Below are positions 1-6,643 of a stretch of DNA of 6,643 nucleotides, in pieces. The position numbers and the translations under genes were made by a program. Below the pieces are notes generated by a model. That model did not search any database, was not told where the DNA came from, and was given only the letters and a program-made list of their open reading frames with translations. Position 1 is the first letter of the stretch. Each line of letters starts with the position of its first letter. The DNA is from Candidatus Latescibacterota bacterium (GTDB lineage: Bacteria > Latescibacterota > UBA2968 > UBA8231), in contig JAJDTN010000239.1 in the NCBI GenBank assembly GCA_022827165.1, positions 1-6,643 of the forward strand. The letters are read 5' to 3'.

Positions 1-817
1 AGTCGAGCAGGTCCCGGTCCTCCATGCCGAGCAGGGCCTGGCGGACGCGGTCGGTGAAGCCTTCCCCGTAGCGGGCGTCCACGTCGCCGCGGATCGACCA
101 GTTGTAGTCGGGGTAGGTCGGCGTGCGCCAGATGACGCGCACCTTGCTGGTGTCGACGATCCCGGCGGCGATCTCCTTCTCCCAGACCTTGTAGTTCAGA
201 GCGCCCGCCTGGTAGGCCCCGGACTGCACCAGGGCCAGGGTCTTGGAGTGGTCGCCGCTGAAGCCGACGCGCTCGAAGACCTCGGCCGGGGGCTTGCCGA
301 AGTGCCGGCGGATGAAGTACTCCGGCATCAGCCGGCCCGAGGTCGATCCCTTGGAGCCGAAGGTGAAGGTCTTGCCCGAGATGCCGGCGGGGAAGGCCGC
401 CTCGGCATCCTCGCCGCTGCAGGTGCAGGCCTTCTTCTCCCGCAGGCCGGTGCTGGCGTGGGCGATGAAGTAGGTGACGAACTCCACGTCTTCCTCGCCC
501 TGGGCGATCGCCTGCGAGCCGGGCACGCCGCGGCGCGCCTGCACGCCGGAGAGGCCTCCGAACCAGGCCAGCTGGACCTCGCCGTTCTTGAAGGCCGAGA
601 CCGAGGCGGCGTAGGACTTGACCGGCACGTACTCCACGGAGACGCCGAGCGTCGAGCCCAGGTACACGGCGACCTTGTCGAATCGCTCCTTGAGTCTCGC
701 CGTGTCCTGGTCGGGGATCGCGGTGAAGCGGAAGAGACTCTCGGCGGCGCCCGCCGGGATCGCGAGGGAAAGCAGGGTCAGGGAAAGCACGGTGAGGGAC
801 GGAATCGAGCGTATCAT
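1..817 (-). CDS. Periplasmic binding protein of a putative selenium-oxyanion (selenate-type) ABC transporter, 3' end cut off by window edge
   Basis: The visible 272 residues form a PhnD-like phosphate/phosphonate-family solute-binding protein. Residues 1-24 look like a Sec signal peptide (basic MIR, hydrophobic LTVLSLTLLSLAIP, then PAGAA cleavage region), so the mature protein should be periplasmic. Family landmarks are FTAIPDQD (31-38), NGEVQLAWFGG (78-88), TFGSKGSTSGRLMPEYF (152-168) and a GALNYKVWEK stretch (205-214). The branch with GSKGSTSGRLMP is, as I recall, the one annotated as putative selenate ABC transporter binding protein because it is commonly next to selD. The adjacent selD here agrees. 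The ATG at 815-817 is preceded by GAGAGGAG about 11 nt upstream. It lies 94 bp downstream of selD on the same strand, so it is probably co-transcribed. An unusual CxC pair (C131, C133) sits between residues 125 and 140. Substrate is inferred, not shown; phosphonate or phosphite remain possible. The C-terminus and the permease/ATPase genes lie beyond the left edge. Confidence 0.87.
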   Translation of the reverse strand, partial: MIRSIPSLTVLSLTLLSLAIPAGAAESLFRFTAIPDQDTARLKERFDKVAVYLGSTLGVSVEYVPVKSYAASVSAFKNGEVQLAWFGGLSGVQARRGVPGSQAIAQGEEDVEFVTYFIAHASTGLREKKACTCSGEDAEAAFPAGISGKTFTFGSKGSTSGRLMPEYFIRRHFGKPPAEVFERVGFSGDHSKTLALVQSGAYQAGALNYKVWEKEIAAGIVDTSKVRVIWRTPTYPDYNWSIRGDVDARYGEGFTDRVRQALLGMEDRDLLD

Positions 818-911: not shown

Positions 912-1967
912 TCAACTGAAGACCAGGTGCACCTCCCCCTCCTTGGGCCCGACCCGGCCGACGACCGCCGAGGCCGCGGCCCCGGCATCGACCAGGGCGC
1001 CGACGGCTTCGGGCGCCTGATCCGCCGGCAGGGCGGCCAGCAGTCCGCCGCTGGTCTGCGGATCGACGGCCAGGGCGCGCCACTCCTCCGGCAGCTCCGC
1101 GGCGAACCGGGTGGAGGCCTCGACGAGCTCGCGGTTGGCCCGGTTGACGCCGGTGGACACGCCCCGCCGGTACATGTCGAGGGCCTCGTCGTACACCGGC
1201 ACGGCGCCGGCGTCGACATGCAGTGCCGCTCCCGAGCCGCTGGCCATCTCGAAGGCGTGGCCCGCCAGGCCGAAGCCGGTCACGTCGGTGGCGGCGTGGA
1301 CCTCGAAGCCGGCCAGGACCTCGGCGGCGGCCCGGTTCAGCGTCGTCAGCGACTCGACGCAGGCCGCCAGGGCCCCGGCCGAGACCCAGCCCTTCAGGTT
1401 GCCGTTGAAGAGCACGCCGCTGCCGATCGGCTTGGTCAGCACGAGGGCGTCTCCGGGGCGCGCGCCGACGTTGCGCCAGTAGCGCTCCGGGTGCACGAGC
1501 CCGGTGACGGAAAGGCCGAACTTGGGTTCCTCGTCATCCGTGGTATGCCCCCCGGCGAGCACGGCGCCGGCTTCCAGGACCTTCTCGCGGGCGCCGGCGA
1601 CGATGCCGGCCAGCACCTCGGGGCCGAGGACATCCCCCGGGAAGCCCAGCAGGTTCAGCGCCGCCAGGGGGCGGCCGCCCATGGCGTAGACGTCGCTCAG
1701 GGAGTTGGCCGCGGCGATCCGGCCGAAGAGCACGGGATCGTCGACCGGCGGCGTGATGATGTCCGCCGTGAGCACGAGGGCGCGTTCGTCGTCGAGCCGG
1801 TACACGGCCGCGTCGTCACTCGTCTCGAAGCCGACGAGGAGGTCCGGATCGACCTGCTCCGGGAGCCCTTCCAGCAGCCTGGCGAGTCCGACCGGACTCA
1901 CTTTCGCCGCTCAGCCGCAGGTCCGGGCCAGGCTCGTGAGTGTCTTGTCCTTGTCGGTCAGCGCCAT
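912..1967 (-). CDS. selD: Selenocysteine-containing selenophosphate synthetase (SelD/SenC), UGA decoded at residue 19
   Basis: Makes selenophosphate from selenide and ATP in the cytoplasm, the activated selenium donor for selenocysteine tRNA and, here, for selenosugar synthesis. The full frame is 351 residues from the ATG at 1965-1967 (GAGG five nt upstream). It contains one internal TGA (1911-1913) giving TCGUAAKVSP. This aligns with the E. coli GCGCKISP active site: Sec19 falls on catalytic Cys17 and Lys22 on catalytic Lys20. Downstream motifs are intact: DDAAVY (51-56), TADI with a probable metal-binding Asp69, GRIAAANSLSDVYAMGG (82-98), AGGHT (138-142), TDVTGFGLAGH (217-227) and VDPQTSGG (281-288). 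A frame starting at the GTG just after the TGA (1899-1901) would lack the catalytic residue, so that shorter call is almost certainly wrong. It is divergent from senA and upstream of the binding-protein gene. In sen clusters the SelD homologue is called senC; it could serve both selenoneine and selenoprotein synthesis. Confidence 0.95.
1874..1913 (-). promoter_or_regulatory. Bacterial SECIS element directing Sec insertion at the selD UGA
   Basis: Directly after the UGA (1911-1913) the mRNA can fold into a two-part hairpin. The lower stem pairs GCGGC (1906-1910) with GCTGC (1874-1878). A small internal loop follows, then an 8-bp upper stem of GTGAGTCC (1894-1901) with GGACTCGC (1882-1889), including one G-U pair, capped by the four-base loop GGTC (1890-1893). 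The apical loop begins 17 nt after the UGA and starts with GG. Known bacterial SECIS elements have the apical loop some 16-37 nt from UGA and a G among the first loop bases, which SelB recognises. The hairpin lies inside coding sequence. Folding was done by eye, not computed. Confidence 0.8.
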
Positions 1968-1995
1968 TGCGTCCTCAGGTCCGTTGGTGAAGCGC

Positions 1996-2098: not shown

Positions 2099-3415
2099 AT
2101 GCCCGAACACCGAATCCTCGACGTCGTCACCCGCCAAGAGCTGGCCCGCTGGGTCCGGGACGCCCGGCAGCGCACCCTGGAGCTGGTCTCGGACCTCACC
2201 GACGAGCAGCTCCTCGGCCCGCAGCTGGCCATCGTCAACCCTGGGGTCTGGGAGATCGGCCACCATGCCTGGTTCCAGTCCCGGTGGGTGTTGCGCCACG
2301 CCGGCGGCCAGCCCCCCGTGCGCGACGACGAGGACGCCCTCTACGACTCGATCGCCATCGCCCACGACCGGCGCTGGGACCTGCCGCTGCCGTCGCGGGA
2401 CGGGACCCTGGCCTACGTGCAAGAGGTCCTCGACCGCACCGAGAGACTGCTGCTGGCCGACCCGCCCGACGACGGCGTGATCTTCCACGCCCTCTACTCC
2501 GTGCTGCACGAGGACATGCACACCGAGGCCCTCACGTACACCCGGCAGACCCACGGCTGGCCGGCGCCCCCGTTGGGCGTGCCCCGCTCCGACGAGGGCA
2601 TCGGCGGCGGCGACCTGGAGGGAGATGTCGAGATCCCCGGCGGCCCCTGCCGCCTCGGCTCCGAGCGCGGCGAGCCCTTCGTCTTCGACAACGAGAAGTG
2701 GGCCCATCCCGTGGAGCTGACGGCCTTCCGCATCGACCGCGCCGCCGTCTCCCAGGGGCGGTTCGCCGAGTTCGTCGACGACGGCGGCTACGCCGACGAG
2801 CGCCTGTGGAGCGAGCAGGGCCGGGCCTGGCTCGCCGAGACGGGGGCCGGGCACCCCTGCTACTGGCGCCGGGGGGACGGCGGCTGGGAGCGCCGCCACT
2901 TCGACGGCTGGCAACCCCTCGAGCCGCACCGCCCGGTGATCCACGTCAACTGGTTCGAGGCCGACGCCTGGTGCCGCTGGGCCGGCCGCCGGCTGCCCAC
3001 CGAGGCGGAGTGGGAGGCCGCCGCCGTGGCCGAGCCCGCTGCCGGCGGCGGGCTTTCGGGGAGCCGCCGCCCCTACCCCTGGGGCGGCGCGCCGCCCTCC
3101 CCGGAGAGGGCCAACCTCGACTGGAGGGCCATGGGCACGGTCGACGTGGGCGGCCTGCCGGAGGGCGACAGCCCCTGGGGCTGCCGCCAGATGATCGGCA
3201 ACGTCTGGGAGTGGACGAGCACCGTCTTCGGCCCCTTCCCCGGCTTCGAGCCGGACCCCTACAAGGAGTACTCCGAGCCCTGCTTCGACACCCGCAGGGT
3301 CATGCGCGGCGGCTGCTGGACCACCCGGTCGCGCCTGATCCGCACGGGGTACCGCAACTTCCAGACCCCCGACCGGCGCGACGTCCTCACCGGCTTCCGC
3401 ACCTGCGCCGCGTGA
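2099..3415 (+). CDS. senA: SenA, selenoneine synthase (EgtB/SUMF1-family non-haem iron enzyme)
   Basis: Predicted to form the C-Se bond between hercynine and a selenosugar on the way to selenoneine. The 438-residue protein has the EgtB architecture. An N-terminal DinB-like helical domain (about 10-160) carries the iron ligands: H55/H56 in WEIGHHAWFQ, and HEDMHTE, an HxxxHxE motif with H137, H141 and E143. A C-terminal FGE-sulfatase domain (about 170-438) has HVNWFEADAWC (292-302), RLPTEAEWE (308-316), GNVWEWT (377-383) and RGGCW (413-417), ending in TGFRTCAA. Where mycobacterial EgtB has, from memory, Asp after GGSWAT to hold gamma-glutamylcysteine, this protein has Arg420, consistent with a different chalcogen donor. 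A glycosyltransferase 10 bp downstream and selD next door are the diagnostic sen context (Kayrouz et al. 2022). GGGAG lies 3 nt before the ATG. On sequence alone, an EgtB-like sulfoxide synthase is the alternative. Hercynine supply (egtD) is not in the window. Confidence 0.9.
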   Translation: MPEHRILDVVTRQELARWVRDARQRTLELVSDLTDEQLLGPQLAIVNPGVWEIGHHAWFQSRWVLRHAGGQPPVRDDEDALYDSIAIAHDRRWDLPLPSRDGTLAYVQEVLDRTERLLLADPPDDGVIFHALYSVLHEDMHTEALTYTRQTHGWPAPPLGVPRSDEGIGGGDLEGDVEIPGGPCRLGSERGEPFVFDNEKWAHPVELTAFRIDRAAVSQGRFAEFVDDGGYADERLWSEQGRAWLAETGAGHPCYWRRGDGGWERRHFDGWQPLEPHRPVIHVNWFEADAWCRWAGRRLPTEAEWEAAAVAEPAAGGGLSGSRRPYPWGGAPPSPERANLDWRAMGTVDVGGLPEGDSPWGCRQMIGNVWEWTSTVFGPFPGFEPDPYKEYSEPCFDTRRVMRGGCWTTRSRLIRTGYRNFQTPDRRDVLTGFRTCAA

Positions 3416-3425
3416 GTCCCGGGCC

Positions 3426-4415
3426 TTGCGAGTCCTGATCGTCACCCCGGCGCCCCCCGGGTCGCGCTCCGGCAACCGGGTGACGGCCCTGCGCTGGGCC
3501 CGCCTCCTGCGCGGCCTCGGGCACGAGACGCTCATCGCCACCGCCTTCGCGCGGCAGCGCTGCGACCTGATGGTCGCCCTCCACGCCCGGCGCAGCCGCG
3601 ACTCCATCCTGCGCTTCCGCCGGCGGCGGCCCGAGGGGCCGCTGGTCCTGGCCCTGACCGGCACCGATCTCTACGGCGACATCCGCACCGACGCCGGGGC
3701 CCGCGACAGCCTCGAGCGCGCCGACCGGCTGATCGTGCTGCAGGAGGCCGGCGCGGCGGAGCTTCCCGAGCGGCTGCGGGCGCGGGCGCGGGTCATCGTG
3801 CAGTCCCTGCCGGTTCCGCGGCGGGCCTCCCGGCCGGTGCAGGGCGCCTTCCGGGTCTGCGTCCTCGGTCATCTGCGGCCGGTGAAGGACCCGCTGAGGA
3901 CGGCGGCGGCCTCTCGGCGGCTGCCGCCTGCGTCGAGGATCCGCGTCGTCCAGGCCGGCGGCGCCCTCGAGGAGGACCTGGCCGTCCGCGCCCGGCGCGA
4001 GGAGGACCGCAACGAGCGCTATCGCTGGCTGGGAGAGCTGCCCCGCTGGCAGGCCCTGCGGCTGCTGGGGCGCAGCCACCTGCTGGCCCTGACCTCGCGC
4101 ATGGAGGGCGGGGCCAACGTCGTCTGCGAGGCCCTGGCCCTGGGGGTGCCCGTGGTCTCCTCGGAGATCTCCGGCTCCATCGGCCTGCTGGGTCCCGGCT
4201 ACCCCGGGTACTTCCCCGTTGGCGACACCGGGGCCCTGGCCGCCCTGCTGTCCCGCGCCGAGACCGACGCCGCCTTCTACGAGCGGCTGCGGCAGGCCTG
4301 CCGCGAGCGCGCCTCCCTCGTCGATCCCGAGCGGGAGAGCGAGGCCTGGAGCGACCTGCTGGCGGAGCTGAGCGGTGGGAACCGGGCCGCCGGGGGCGAG
4401 CCTTGCCGCCCCTGA
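3426..4415 (+). CDS. senB: SenB, selenosugar synthase (GT-B glycosyltransferase-like)
   Basis: Predicted to use selenophosphate and a UDP-sugar to make a selenosugar, the selenium donor for SenA. The 329-residue protein starts MRVLIVTPAPPGSRSGNR, a typical GT-B N-terminal strand and glycine-rich loop, followed by ALRWARLLRGLGHE (21-34). CDLMVALHARRS (46-57) and ALTGTDLYGDIRTD (76-89) are the segments I recognise from this glycosyltransferase family. The C-terminal domain begins near VCVLGHLRPVKDP (144-156) and carries the nucleotide-sugar motif EGGANVVCE, an EX7E pattern with E227 and E235, then GVPVVSSEISGSIGLLG (240-256). The start is TTG at 3426-3428, 10 bp after the senA stop with no clear Shine-Dalgarno sequence, so it is probably translationally coupled to senA. 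No membrane segment is seen; cytoplasmic. The assignment leans on the senA and selD neighbours, since many GT-B enzymes share this fold. Confidence 0.9.
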   Translation: MRVLIVTPAPPGSRSGNRVTALRWARLLRGLGHETLIATAFARQRCDLMVALHARRSRDSILRFRRRRPEGPLVLALTGTDLYGDIRTDAGARDSLERADRLIVLQEAGAAELPERLRARARVIVQSLPVPRRASRPVQGAFRVCVLGHLRPVKDPLRTAAASRRLPPASRIRVVQAGGALEEDLAVRARREEDRNERYRWLGELPRWQALRLLGRSHLLALTSRMEGGANVVCEALALGVPVVSSEISGSIGLLGPGYPGYFPVGDTGALAALLSRAETDAAFYERLRQACRERASLVDPERESEAWSDLLAELSGGNRAAGGEPCRP

Positions 4416-4462: not shown

Positions 4463-5494
4463 ATGGACTCCCATCTCGGCACCGACCCGCAGCTCCCGGT
4501 CTCGCCTGCGCCCATCCTGAACGCCTCGGCCCGGCCCGCCTCCCCGGCGGCCGACTCGCCTTCCGTCGTCGTCGGCGAGGACGAAGGCCGCCAAGTCCGC
4601 ATGGCCTATTCGGAGCACGGGGATCCCGGCGCATCCCTGCACCTGGTCCTCCTCCACGGCCTCTTCGATCACAAGGGCACCTGGTCCGCTCTGGCACCCC
4701 GCCTGGCCGAGGCGGGGTACCATGTCGTCGCCCCCGACCTCGTCGGCTTCGGCCGCAGCAGCAAGCCCGAGTTCCGCTCCTGGCCCGCCTCCCGGCGATA
4801 CGGCGCCGAGGCCCAGGTCGGATTCGTCCGCGCCTTCGTCGAGGGCCTCGGCCTCGACGAGGTGGTCCTTGCGGGGAACTCCTTCGGCGGCGGGGTCTTC
4901 CTGCGCAGCCTGTGCACCCCGTGGCCCGGCGGACCCCGGGTGCGGGGCCTGGTGCTGGAGAGCGCCTCGGGCTACCCCCAGGCCCGGCCCCCCTACATCC
5001 GGCTGCTGGGCGACCTGCCCGGCCGGCTGCTGCTCAACCGGCGGGTCCTCGGCATCGGTCTGGGCACCGGCCTGGCGCGGGTCGTAGTGCGATCGACTTT
5101 CCGGCGCGTCTTCCACGACCCCGGCAAGATCCCGGAAGAGCTGGTGGACGAGGCCGTCGCCATCCTGCGGGGGCCGAACACGGTGTACGCCTACCAGGCG
5201 GCGGCGCGCAACCTGGTCCCCGGCGACATCGCCCGCTTCACCGACGCCTACCGGGAGATCGACGTGCCCACCCTCGTCCTGTGGGGTGCCGAGGACCGCA
5301 TCGTGCCCGCCCGGTTCGCGGCCCTCTTCGAAGCCGAGTTGCCGGACGCCGAGCTGCACGTCTTCGACGAGTGCGGCCACGCGCCCCATCTCGAGTACCC
5401 GGACGAGACGGCCCGGCTCATCGGCGACTGGACCCGGCGCCGCCTCACGGAAGAACCGAATCGCGCCTTGCCCGCGGGACGGGACCGGCCATGA
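4463..5494 (+). CDS. Alpha/beta hydrolase-fold enzyme, substrate unknown
   Basis: A 343-residue protein with a complete alpha/beta hydrolase core. HGLFDHKGTW (65-74) is the oxyanion-hole region. PDLVGFGRSSKP (91-102) follows strand 4. GNSFGG (138-143) is the nucleophile elbow with Ser140. LWGAEDRIVP (273-282) supplies Asp278, and CGHAPHLEYP (304-313) supplies His306. A cap region lies at about 170-260. The first 35 residues are Ala/Pro/Ser-rich and lie outside the fold; they do not look like a signal peptide. I chose the ATG at 4463, rather than an in-frame TTG at 4403, because the TTG lies in the -35 box of the predicted promoter and inside senB. The GGAGAG upstream is rather far (about 15 nt), so a start slightly different from this is possible. 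It overlaps the next gene by ATGA. Such proteins include esterases, haloperoxidase-like and C-C hydrolases; no specific reaction can be assigned. Confidence 0.88.
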   Translation: MDSHLGTDPQLPVSPAPILNASARPASPAADSPSVVVGEDEGRQVRMAYSEHGDPGASLHLVLLHGLFDHKGTWSALAPRLAEAGYHVVAPDLVGFGRSSKPEFRSWPASRRYGAEAQVGFVRAFVEGLGLDEVVLAGNSFGGGVFLRSLCTPWPGGPRVRGLVLESASGYPQARPPYIRLLGDLPGRLLLNRRVLGIGLGTGLARVVVRSTFRRVFHDPGKIPEELVDEAVAILRGPNTVYAYQAAARNLVPGDIARFTDAYREIDVPTLVLWGAEDRIVPARFAALFEAELPDAELHVFDECGHAPHLEYPDETARLIGDWTRRRLTEEPNRALPAGRDRP

Positions 5495-5874
5495 CGGACG
5501 GGAACATCGGCGCCGACGGCGCCCGCTTCCGCCTCTTCTTCGGCGTCCTCTTCCTGGTCTTCGCCCTCGGCCTGATGGCCCTGCTCACCGTGACCGGCGT
5601 GCCCCTGGCCCTGCGCCTGGTGGTCTTCGTACCGCTCTGGATCGGCACTTTCACCATGGCCGAGTCCCGGTCCCGCGTCTGCGTCCTCAACGCCGCCCGC
5701 GGCGTCTGCTCCACCGAGTCCGGCACGCAGCGCATCGAGGACGACGAGCGGCGGCTGGCGCTCGTGCGGCGCGCCTGGAGAGTGCCTCTCCACTCCGTGC
5801 TTTTCGCGGTGGTCCTGACCGTCTTCCTGGTGGCTGTCTCGGCGTGGCTGCCCTGGAGGACCCCGGCCGGCTGA
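5491..5874 (+). CDS. Small three-helix membrane protein, uncharacterised
   Basis: A 127-residue protein whose ATG overlaps the stop of the hydrolase gene (ATGA), so the two are probably translationally coupled. Hydrophobic segments lie at about 13-34 and 37-54, forming a hairpin, and at about 100-121. The middle, roughly 57-98, is a soluble loop with two cysteines, CVLNAARGVC (C64 and C73), and a charged stretch IEDDERRLALVRRAWR (82-97). I do not recognise the family. The paired cysteines and highly charged loop could be a metal or redox site, but nothing in the sequence proves it. Coupling to the hydrolase suggests a membrane partner for that enzyme. Its stop lies in a hairpin shared with the convergent gene. 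Confidence 0.75.
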   Translation: MTDGNIGADGARFRLFFGVLFLVFALGLMALLTVTGVPLALRLVVFVPLWIGTFTMAESRSRVCVLNAARGVCSTESGTQRIEDDERRLALVRRAWRVPLHSVLFAVVLTVFLVAVSAWLPWRTPAG

Positions 5875-5889
5875 AGGCTCAGCCGCCGG
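5863..5889. terminator. Bidirectional hairpin between convergent genes, possible terminator
   Basis: CGGCTGA (5868-5874), loop AGGC, TCAGCCG (5879-5885) form a perfect 7-bp stem. It is extended by CCGG (5863-5866) with CCGG (5886-5889) past a single bulged C. The stop codon of the plus-strand membrane protein and that of the minus-strand gene are the two arms. No T-run follows on either strand, so intrinsic termination would be of the U-poor type seen in some GC-rich bacteria. Its selection as part of the coding ends cannot be excluded. Confidence 0.45.
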
Positions 5890-6328
5890 TCCCCAGGCCT
5901 TCGGCGAAGACCACGAGGAGCGCCACCAGCAGCACCGCCCGCAAGGTCCAGCCGGCGGTGCGGACCCAGCTGGTGGCCACCAGCCGGTTGACCTTGCCCT
6001 CGTCGTAGCCCCCCGCCAGGGCCCGGTGGAGGGGCCGCTGCACCCTGAGGGTGGAGAGCCAGAGCACGCCGAGGACGACGGCGTTCAACAGCATCGGCGG
6101 CTCACCGACCACTTCCGGGGGATCCAGGGCCAGCCACACGCCGGTGATCAGCTCGAAGAGCATCACCGGCGTCACCACCAGGCTCGAGCGCCGCGCGTGC
6201 CCTCTCTCGTACTCCTGGAACCGCGTCATGCCCACCCGGTGCATGAGCGGGTAGTGGACGATCTGCACGAACCAGGCGATGGCGGTCATGTACACGGTCG
6301 CCGCCGCGTGCAGCATGAGCAGGATCAT
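5879..6328 (-). CDS. Four-helix integral membrane protein, uncharacterised
   Basis: A 149-residue hydrophobic protein with likely membrane helices at about 2-27, 48-68, 77-97 and 123-143, and no cleavable signal peptide. The first helix ends in WFVQIVHYPLM (19-29), followed by FQEYERGHARRSSLVV (37-52). The histidines H25, H30 and H44 near the membrane surface, and E59 in MLFELITGVW, are the sort of polar residues that might be functional. I recall similar small membrane proteins annotated as hypothetical in several bacterial phyla, but cannot name a family with confidence. Its ATG overlaps the stop of the upstream deacetylase-family gene (ATGA), indicating one transcript with coupled translation. 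It ends 4 bp from the convergent plus-strand gene. Confidence 0.8.
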   Translation of the reverse strand: MILLMLHAAATVYMTAIAWFVQIVHYPLMHRVGMTRFQEYERGHARRSSLVVTPVMLFELITGVWLALDPPEVVGEPPMLLNAVVLGVLWLSTLRVQRPLHRALAGGYDEGKVNRLVATSWVRTAGWTLRAVLLVALLVVFAEGLGTGG

Positions 6329-6643
6329 GCCGCTCCTCCGTAGACCCGGCGGGCCTCGCGATGGGCCACGGCGTGGAGGTCGGCCGTCTCCTCGGGGGAG
6401 GAGGCATAGCCGCCCGACATCACCAGAAGCAGGGCGGCCCCCGACGCCCGGGCGGCGCGCAGCACCGCGCGGTCCCTCCGGTGGAGGCCGCCGCGGCTGA
6501 GGGACAGGCGGCCGTAGCGGTCGCCGGCCACCGGGTCGACCCCGGCGAGGTAGACGATCAGGTCCGGCCGGCCGCCGCGGAGCACTTCCGGCAGGGCCGC
6601 CGTCAGGCGCTCGAGATAGTCGTCGTCGCCGGTGCCGTCGGGC
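6325..6643 (-). CDS. Histone deacetylase-family (AcuC/HDAC-like) amidohydrolase, N-terminal part beyond window
   Basis: Only the last 105 or so residues are present; the frame is open to the right edge. The fragment shows the C-terminal part of the arginase/deacetylase fold. GTGDDDYLERL precedes an amphipathic helix. PDLIVYLAGVDPVAGD contains the Asp that is the second zinc ligand in this superfamily. GRLSLSRGGLHRRD is the conserved segment after it, and LLLVMSGGYA holds the catalytic Tyr of the GGGY-type motif. Bacterial members deacetylate acetylated lysines, polyamines or acetoin-utilisation targets; the substrate here cannot be told. No internal ATG is needed as a start: the GTG at 6583-6585 only marks an internal codon, because the coding match continues upstream of it. 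The stop overlaps the start of the following membrane protein gene by ATGA. Confidence 0.88.
   Translation of the reverse strand, partial: PDGTGDDDYLERLTAALPEVLRGGRPDLIVYLAGVDPVAGDRYGRLSLSRGGLHRRDRAVLRAARASGAALLLVMSGGYASSPEETADLHAVAHREARRVYGGAA

Follow-up and report, generated by a model that had tools for sequence, protein, structure and literature searches.

Selenophosphate synthetases (SelD) with selenocysteine (Sec) at the catalytic position form a well-described family found in many bacteria; the earlier note on this DNA had likewise called the phenomenon established. The A. aeolicus enzyme (2yye) is one that we take to carry Sec naturally, while the SenC of Variovorax paradoxus presumably has Cys at the site. 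An older model, as given in the available text of PMC1794560, has Sec-containing SelD sustaining the Sec trait for itself and selenouridine, and Ndh-SelD fusions are also known (available text of PMC2398784). In the described selenoneine pathway SenC provides selenophosphate, SenB makes a selenosugar from it and SenA completes selenoneine (PMC9814287); the same SenC-SenB-SenA pathway is described in the available part of PMC10891094.

We analysed a window of 6,643 nucleotides (the whole stretch of DNA presented here), with the following features.

912..1967, minus strand: selD/senC, selenophosphate synthetase (TIGR00476) of 351 aa with predicted Sec at residue 19; terminal stop TGA at 912-914
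1911..1913, minus strand: in-frame UGA, predicted to be read as Sec19, counterpart of catalytic Cys17 in E. coli SelD (translation with TGA=U, alignment)
1883..1900, minus strand: SECIS-like hairpin, stem 1894-1900 with 1883-1889 and apical loop GGUC at 1890-1893; support modest
1973..1976, minus strand: GAGG, possible ribosome-binding site (from the sequence) 5 nt upstream of the selD ATG at 1967
2..817, minus strand: putative selenate-type ABC transporter substrate-binding protein (SBP), cut by the window end (TIGR04553, 336 bits, cut-off 250)
2099..3415, plus strand: senA, selenoneine synthase, divergent from selD (NF041186, 507.3 bits, cut-off 420)
3426..4415, plus strand: senB, Se-glycosyltransferase (selenosugar synthase; TIGR04348, 406.2 bits, cut-off 300), with Cys at residue 145

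Elsewhere in the window, a fragment of the histone-deacetylase family is cut by the window end (6325-6642, minus strand), and for two further stretches, 5491-5874 and 5879-6328, neither Pfam nor NCBIfam gave a family match at E<=0.001.

The earlier note had presented selD as a selenoprotein gene, and this is still the best reading of it, but the account was incomplete, having overlooked the selenoneine (sen) cluster in which the gene lies. From the first conventional start past the TGA (GTG 1899-1901) the frame does run on upstream for 22 codons, as claimed there, across that one TGA and up to an ATG (1965-1967) preceded by GAGG; translated with TGA as U it yields 351 residues with a single internal TGA, at codon 19, and scores 359.3 bits against TIGR00476 (curated cut-off 125). 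The proposal that TCG-U-AAKVSP is the SelD active site, with Sec on Cys17 and the catalytic Lys kept, agrees with our alignment to E. coli SelD (3u0o), which pairs U19 with Cys17 and K22 with Lys20; the window protein was also aligned to 2yye, and the same TGA recurs in related loci. With described Sec-containing SelDs it shares the Sec/Cys site, the catalytic Lys, the AIRS domains and a hairpin after the UGA, and we found no difference in the protein itself. It has the SelD domain in common with the Ndh-SelD fusions but is single-domain. What sets it apart from known Sec-containing SelDs is a neighbourhood of selenoneine genes.

That neighbourhood resembles the V. paradoxus sen cluster in having SenA, SenB and an adjoining SelD homologue, and differs from it in that selD is divergent from senAB, a selenate-type SBP gene lies behind it and SenC has a predicted Sec. 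The ATGs of selD and senA lie head to head, 131 nt apart, senB comes after senA, the SBP gene comes after selD, and the window SenB matches the SenB chains 8jjq and 8fbx. Within the genome collection the nearest locus is L001, from a genome titled Gemmatimonadaceae bacterium COS4_bin_9, with SelD 95% and SenB 89% identical; its gene order and strands are the same: SBP minus, SelD minus, SenA plus, SenB plus. With senA and senB as neighbours, the window selD is most plausibly the senC gene of a selenoneine cluster. We are highly confident that it encodes a Sec-containing selenophosphate synthetase that acts as SenC and probably also feeds Sec-tRNA synthesis. SelB and tRNA-Sec would decode UGA 1911-1913 as Sec, with the hairpin that follows it as the guide. 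In the enzyme, which converts selenide and ATP to selenophosphate, Sec19 and Lys22 would be part of the active-site loop; SenB would then make the selenosugar and SenA would place selenium onto hercynine, so that the selD product would work as SenC and the cluster would make selenoneine. Since only one SelD was found in the nearest genome (G001, that of L001), a single Sec-containing SelD probably supplies selenoneine and Sec-tRNA synthesis alike, its own Sec included.

A different reading of the same arrangement is that a housekeeping Sec-containing SelD merely adjoins senAB without serving selenoneine, which we regard as improbable. In its favour, most TGA-containing SelD genomes of the phylum of G001 lack SenB, SelD was not detected in the fetched stretch of 66 of 80 SenB loci, and of the 14 loci that do have SelD, SenA appears in the stretch in nine and is missing from it in five. 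Against it, 13 of those 14 loci have selD no more than about 300 nt from senA or senB, in several gene orders, and the single SelD found in G001 leaves the SenB of that genome without another known source of selenophosphate. Two plasmid sen loci, examined for contrast with a Cys-containing SenC, have no annotated selD in the stretch, in a plasmid gene table that is incomplete.

The window SelD could instead begin at GTG 1901, past the UGA, as a SelD-like product that lacks the catalytic residue. This is how the databases annotate it: all 18 relatives inspected start after the UGA and thereby drop the active site, as the earlier note had foreseen for default annotation, and query coverage is at most 93% in each of the best 120 of 7997 database relatives of SelD. 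Such starts are what gene callers give, since they read UGA as a stop. Against the downstream start, between the ATG and the TGA the 18 codons of the window and L001 comprise 14 identical, four synonymous and no nonsynonymous pairs, whereas the 12 codons upstream of the ATG (compared without gaps) comprise none identical, one synonymous and 11 nonsynonymous; the stretch above the UGA is therefore coding. Nine loci at 60-95% identity moreover retain TLTSLA(K/R)TCG-TGA-AAK, and coding conservation is present in relatives on both sides of the UGA. We accordingly give the downstream start very little credence.

Of 80 SenB loci fetched, 14 yielded a SelD, and each of these 14 has TGA as its codon 19, as does the window. 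SelD is present in 43 of 48 senB genomes, and in 38 of those 43 it contains TGA, at codon 19 in 38/38 (the match in G023 is a fragment below the cut-off). In the other five, every SelD frame is TGA-free and 741-756 aa long, two with Cys at the Sec site and three that fall outside the alignment there; an ordinary-length TGA-free SelD was found in none of the 48 senB genomes searched. Six of the 48 genomes contain a fusion-length frame free of TGA, which is the sole SelD in five, and the 741-756 aa frames fit the length of known oxidoreductase fusions. The phylum of G001, represented by 64 genomes and taking in loci titled Latescibacteria or Latescibacterota (G004, G009), has SelD in 47, with TGA at codon 19 in 40, Cys in six and one fragment that is unreadable at that point. 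A sequencing error or gene decay, in an organism whose true codon is TGC or TGT, would require only a single-base change from Cys, and TGC or TGT is indeed what the six Cys-containing SelDs of this phylum carry there; the same TGA in independent genomes (14/14 sen loci, 40/47 SelD-bearing genomes of the phylum) excludes a sequencing error in practice and makes this explanation hardly credible.

SenB occurs in five of the 64 genomes, all within the 40 with TGA-containing SelD, and SelB, at the threshold used, in 44, of which 37 have TGA-containing SelD. The idea that Sec in SelD is special to sen clusters was not supported: TGA-containing SelD prevails in this phylum with or without SenB and, being its norm, is no mark of sen clusters. 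The six Cys-containing SelDs (L230-L235, in G099, G103, G102, G101, G056 and G100) have a TGC or TGT codon within this TGA-SelD phylum; five share the context AKRAG-C-AAK, SelB is present in their genomes, and a Sec-to-Cys change is possible.

Evidence for the Sec machinery comes from the genomes of relatives rather than the window's own: 15 genomes behind SenB loci, namely the 14 with SelD in the locus and that of L004. Matches to selB and selA exceed the cut-offs in 15/15 each, and tRNA-Sec exceeds the gathering score in 14/15, under a model that scores other tRNAs too (above cut-off in five of 14 control genomes). Because of this lack of specificity, the tRNA-Sec of G001 was examined directly with ARAGORN, which places a tRNA-SeC with anticodon tca within about 3.5 kb of selB and selA on one contig (C105). 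The genome G021 has two SelB and two SelA matches. At the thresholds used, no SelB match was found in five draft genomes with TGA-containing SelD (G078, G090, G109, G023, G030), which we take for putative draft gaps. Across the 94 senB genomes searched, SelB is above cut-off in 87, and selenoneine genes and Sec decoding thus co-occur in this sample. That TGA is a sense codon organism-wide (code 4 or 25) would accommodate one in-frame TGA within a conserved gene, but selD, senA and senB all terminate at TGA (912-914, 3413-3415, 4413-4415) and the 15 relatives' genomes have selB and selA, which leaves this reading with next to no plausibility. On the reading frame, its conservation, the gene neighbourhood and the machinery in a relative, all drawn from sequence, we infer that Sec is inserted at the UGA and that the SelD is active; the protein very probably contains selenocysteine read from the in-frame stop codon.

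The hairpin after the UGA has a seven-pair stem and a GGUC loop, with 17 nt between UGA and loop. It is more stable than dinucleotide shuffles (z -3.0, for a stretch with two extra upstream bases) and takes 12th place in fold stability among 336 stretches of the gene. Its advantage over synonymous recodings is slight (p 0.048 in the window); the latter test gave p<0.05 in eight of 33 distinct SelDs and z<0 in 28 of 33. In a set of ten sequences that has the window among them, 97.1% of pair cells are preserved and one pair is changed on both sides, with covariation that does not rise above shuffles (67 of 500 attain the score). The terminal UGA of selD also precedes a G+C-rich hairpin (-21.2 kcal/mol, against -23.9 at the internal UGA), and an Rfam scan of the window returned three matches, every one under its gathering score. 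The hairpin is compatible with a bacterial SECIS without amounting to strong proof, and with its support thus modest the case for Sec rests on conservation, the active-site alignment and the machinery.

In-frame TGA codons were also found in SenB of other genomes, in 14 of 140 distinct frames (2/5, 5/15, 3/30 and 3/56 by phylum search, plus L077), whereas none has an internal TAA or TAG; SenA showed no in-frame TGA in 55 matches, duplicates included. Five Poribacteria genomes have TGA at residue 145 in window numbering (L005, identical with L112 of G122, and L011, L022, L034 and L122), a position at which 100 of the 140 distinct SenBs, the window's own among them, have Cys. It lies nine residues before the Lys aligned with K158 of V. 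paradoxus SenB, a protein that itself has Val at the aligned position. These five SenBs are 67-89% identical, with synonymous codon changes outnumbering nonsynonymous ones in every pair, and each is the one SenB match in its genome. The residue-145 SenB is a candidate Sec-containing Se-glycosyltransferase. Two Acidobacteria SenBs (L020, L127) have TGA at residue 4, where 30 of 139 have Cys. The remaining TGAs, at residues 130/131 (L004, L050, L166, L187), 171 (L015, L077) and 27 (L188), are not at Cys sites.

A canonical SECIS was not found in general after the SenB UGAs, one of the 14 (L050) reaching p<0.05 against synonymous recoding; by eye, a CCGCC/GGCGG stem whose loop contains GGUUC can be seen in L020 and L127. 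A GTG follows TGA-145 in four of the five Poribacteria, which makes a restart past the UGA thinkable, with the GTA of L122 against it. The genomes of the first 11 TGA-SenB cases all have selB (11/11), and the three Planctomycetota TGA-SenB genomes, in which selA alone was searched, have selA (3/3); no selA match was found in G122 and no SelD match in G026 (L020). A link between SenB TGAs and SelB was set aside as uninformative, SelB being nearly everywhere in senB genomes (87/94). In L022 and L034, senA, TGA-containing selD and TGA-containing senB are consecutive, which puts two adjacent candidate selenoprotein genes in each sen cluster. Taken as sequences, the SenB TGAs suggest a putative selenoprotein family that has not been described and has no clear SECIS. 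The literature search, covering titles and abstract openings, found no paper announcing Sec in SenC or SenB, nor did that search or the available part of a review yield a report of in-frame TGA or Sec in SenB.

Sec in SelD is a known phenomenon and ordinary in kind; its adjacency to selenoneine genes is less expected, and novelty lies more with the SenB lead, which is as yet unproven. Reading the frame through the UGA corrects a mis-annotation by which the inspected database copies of SelD lose their active site. It would also tie Sec decoding to selenoneine, a trait left unweighed in the available text of the older Sec-SelD model (PMC1794560), and an in-frame UGA in SenB would, if proven, bring a glycosyltransferase among the selenoproteins. 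On balance we favour the view that many bacteria run a selenoneine pathway of selenoproteins, with Sec in SenC throughout the senB genomes examined that have a SelD of non-fusion length, and Sec in SenB in place of either the conserved Cys that precedes the catalytic Lys by nine residues (five Poribacteria) or a frequent Cys at residue 4 (two Acidobacteria). If this is true, selenium supply would gate SenC and SenB, and hence the flux into selenoneine.
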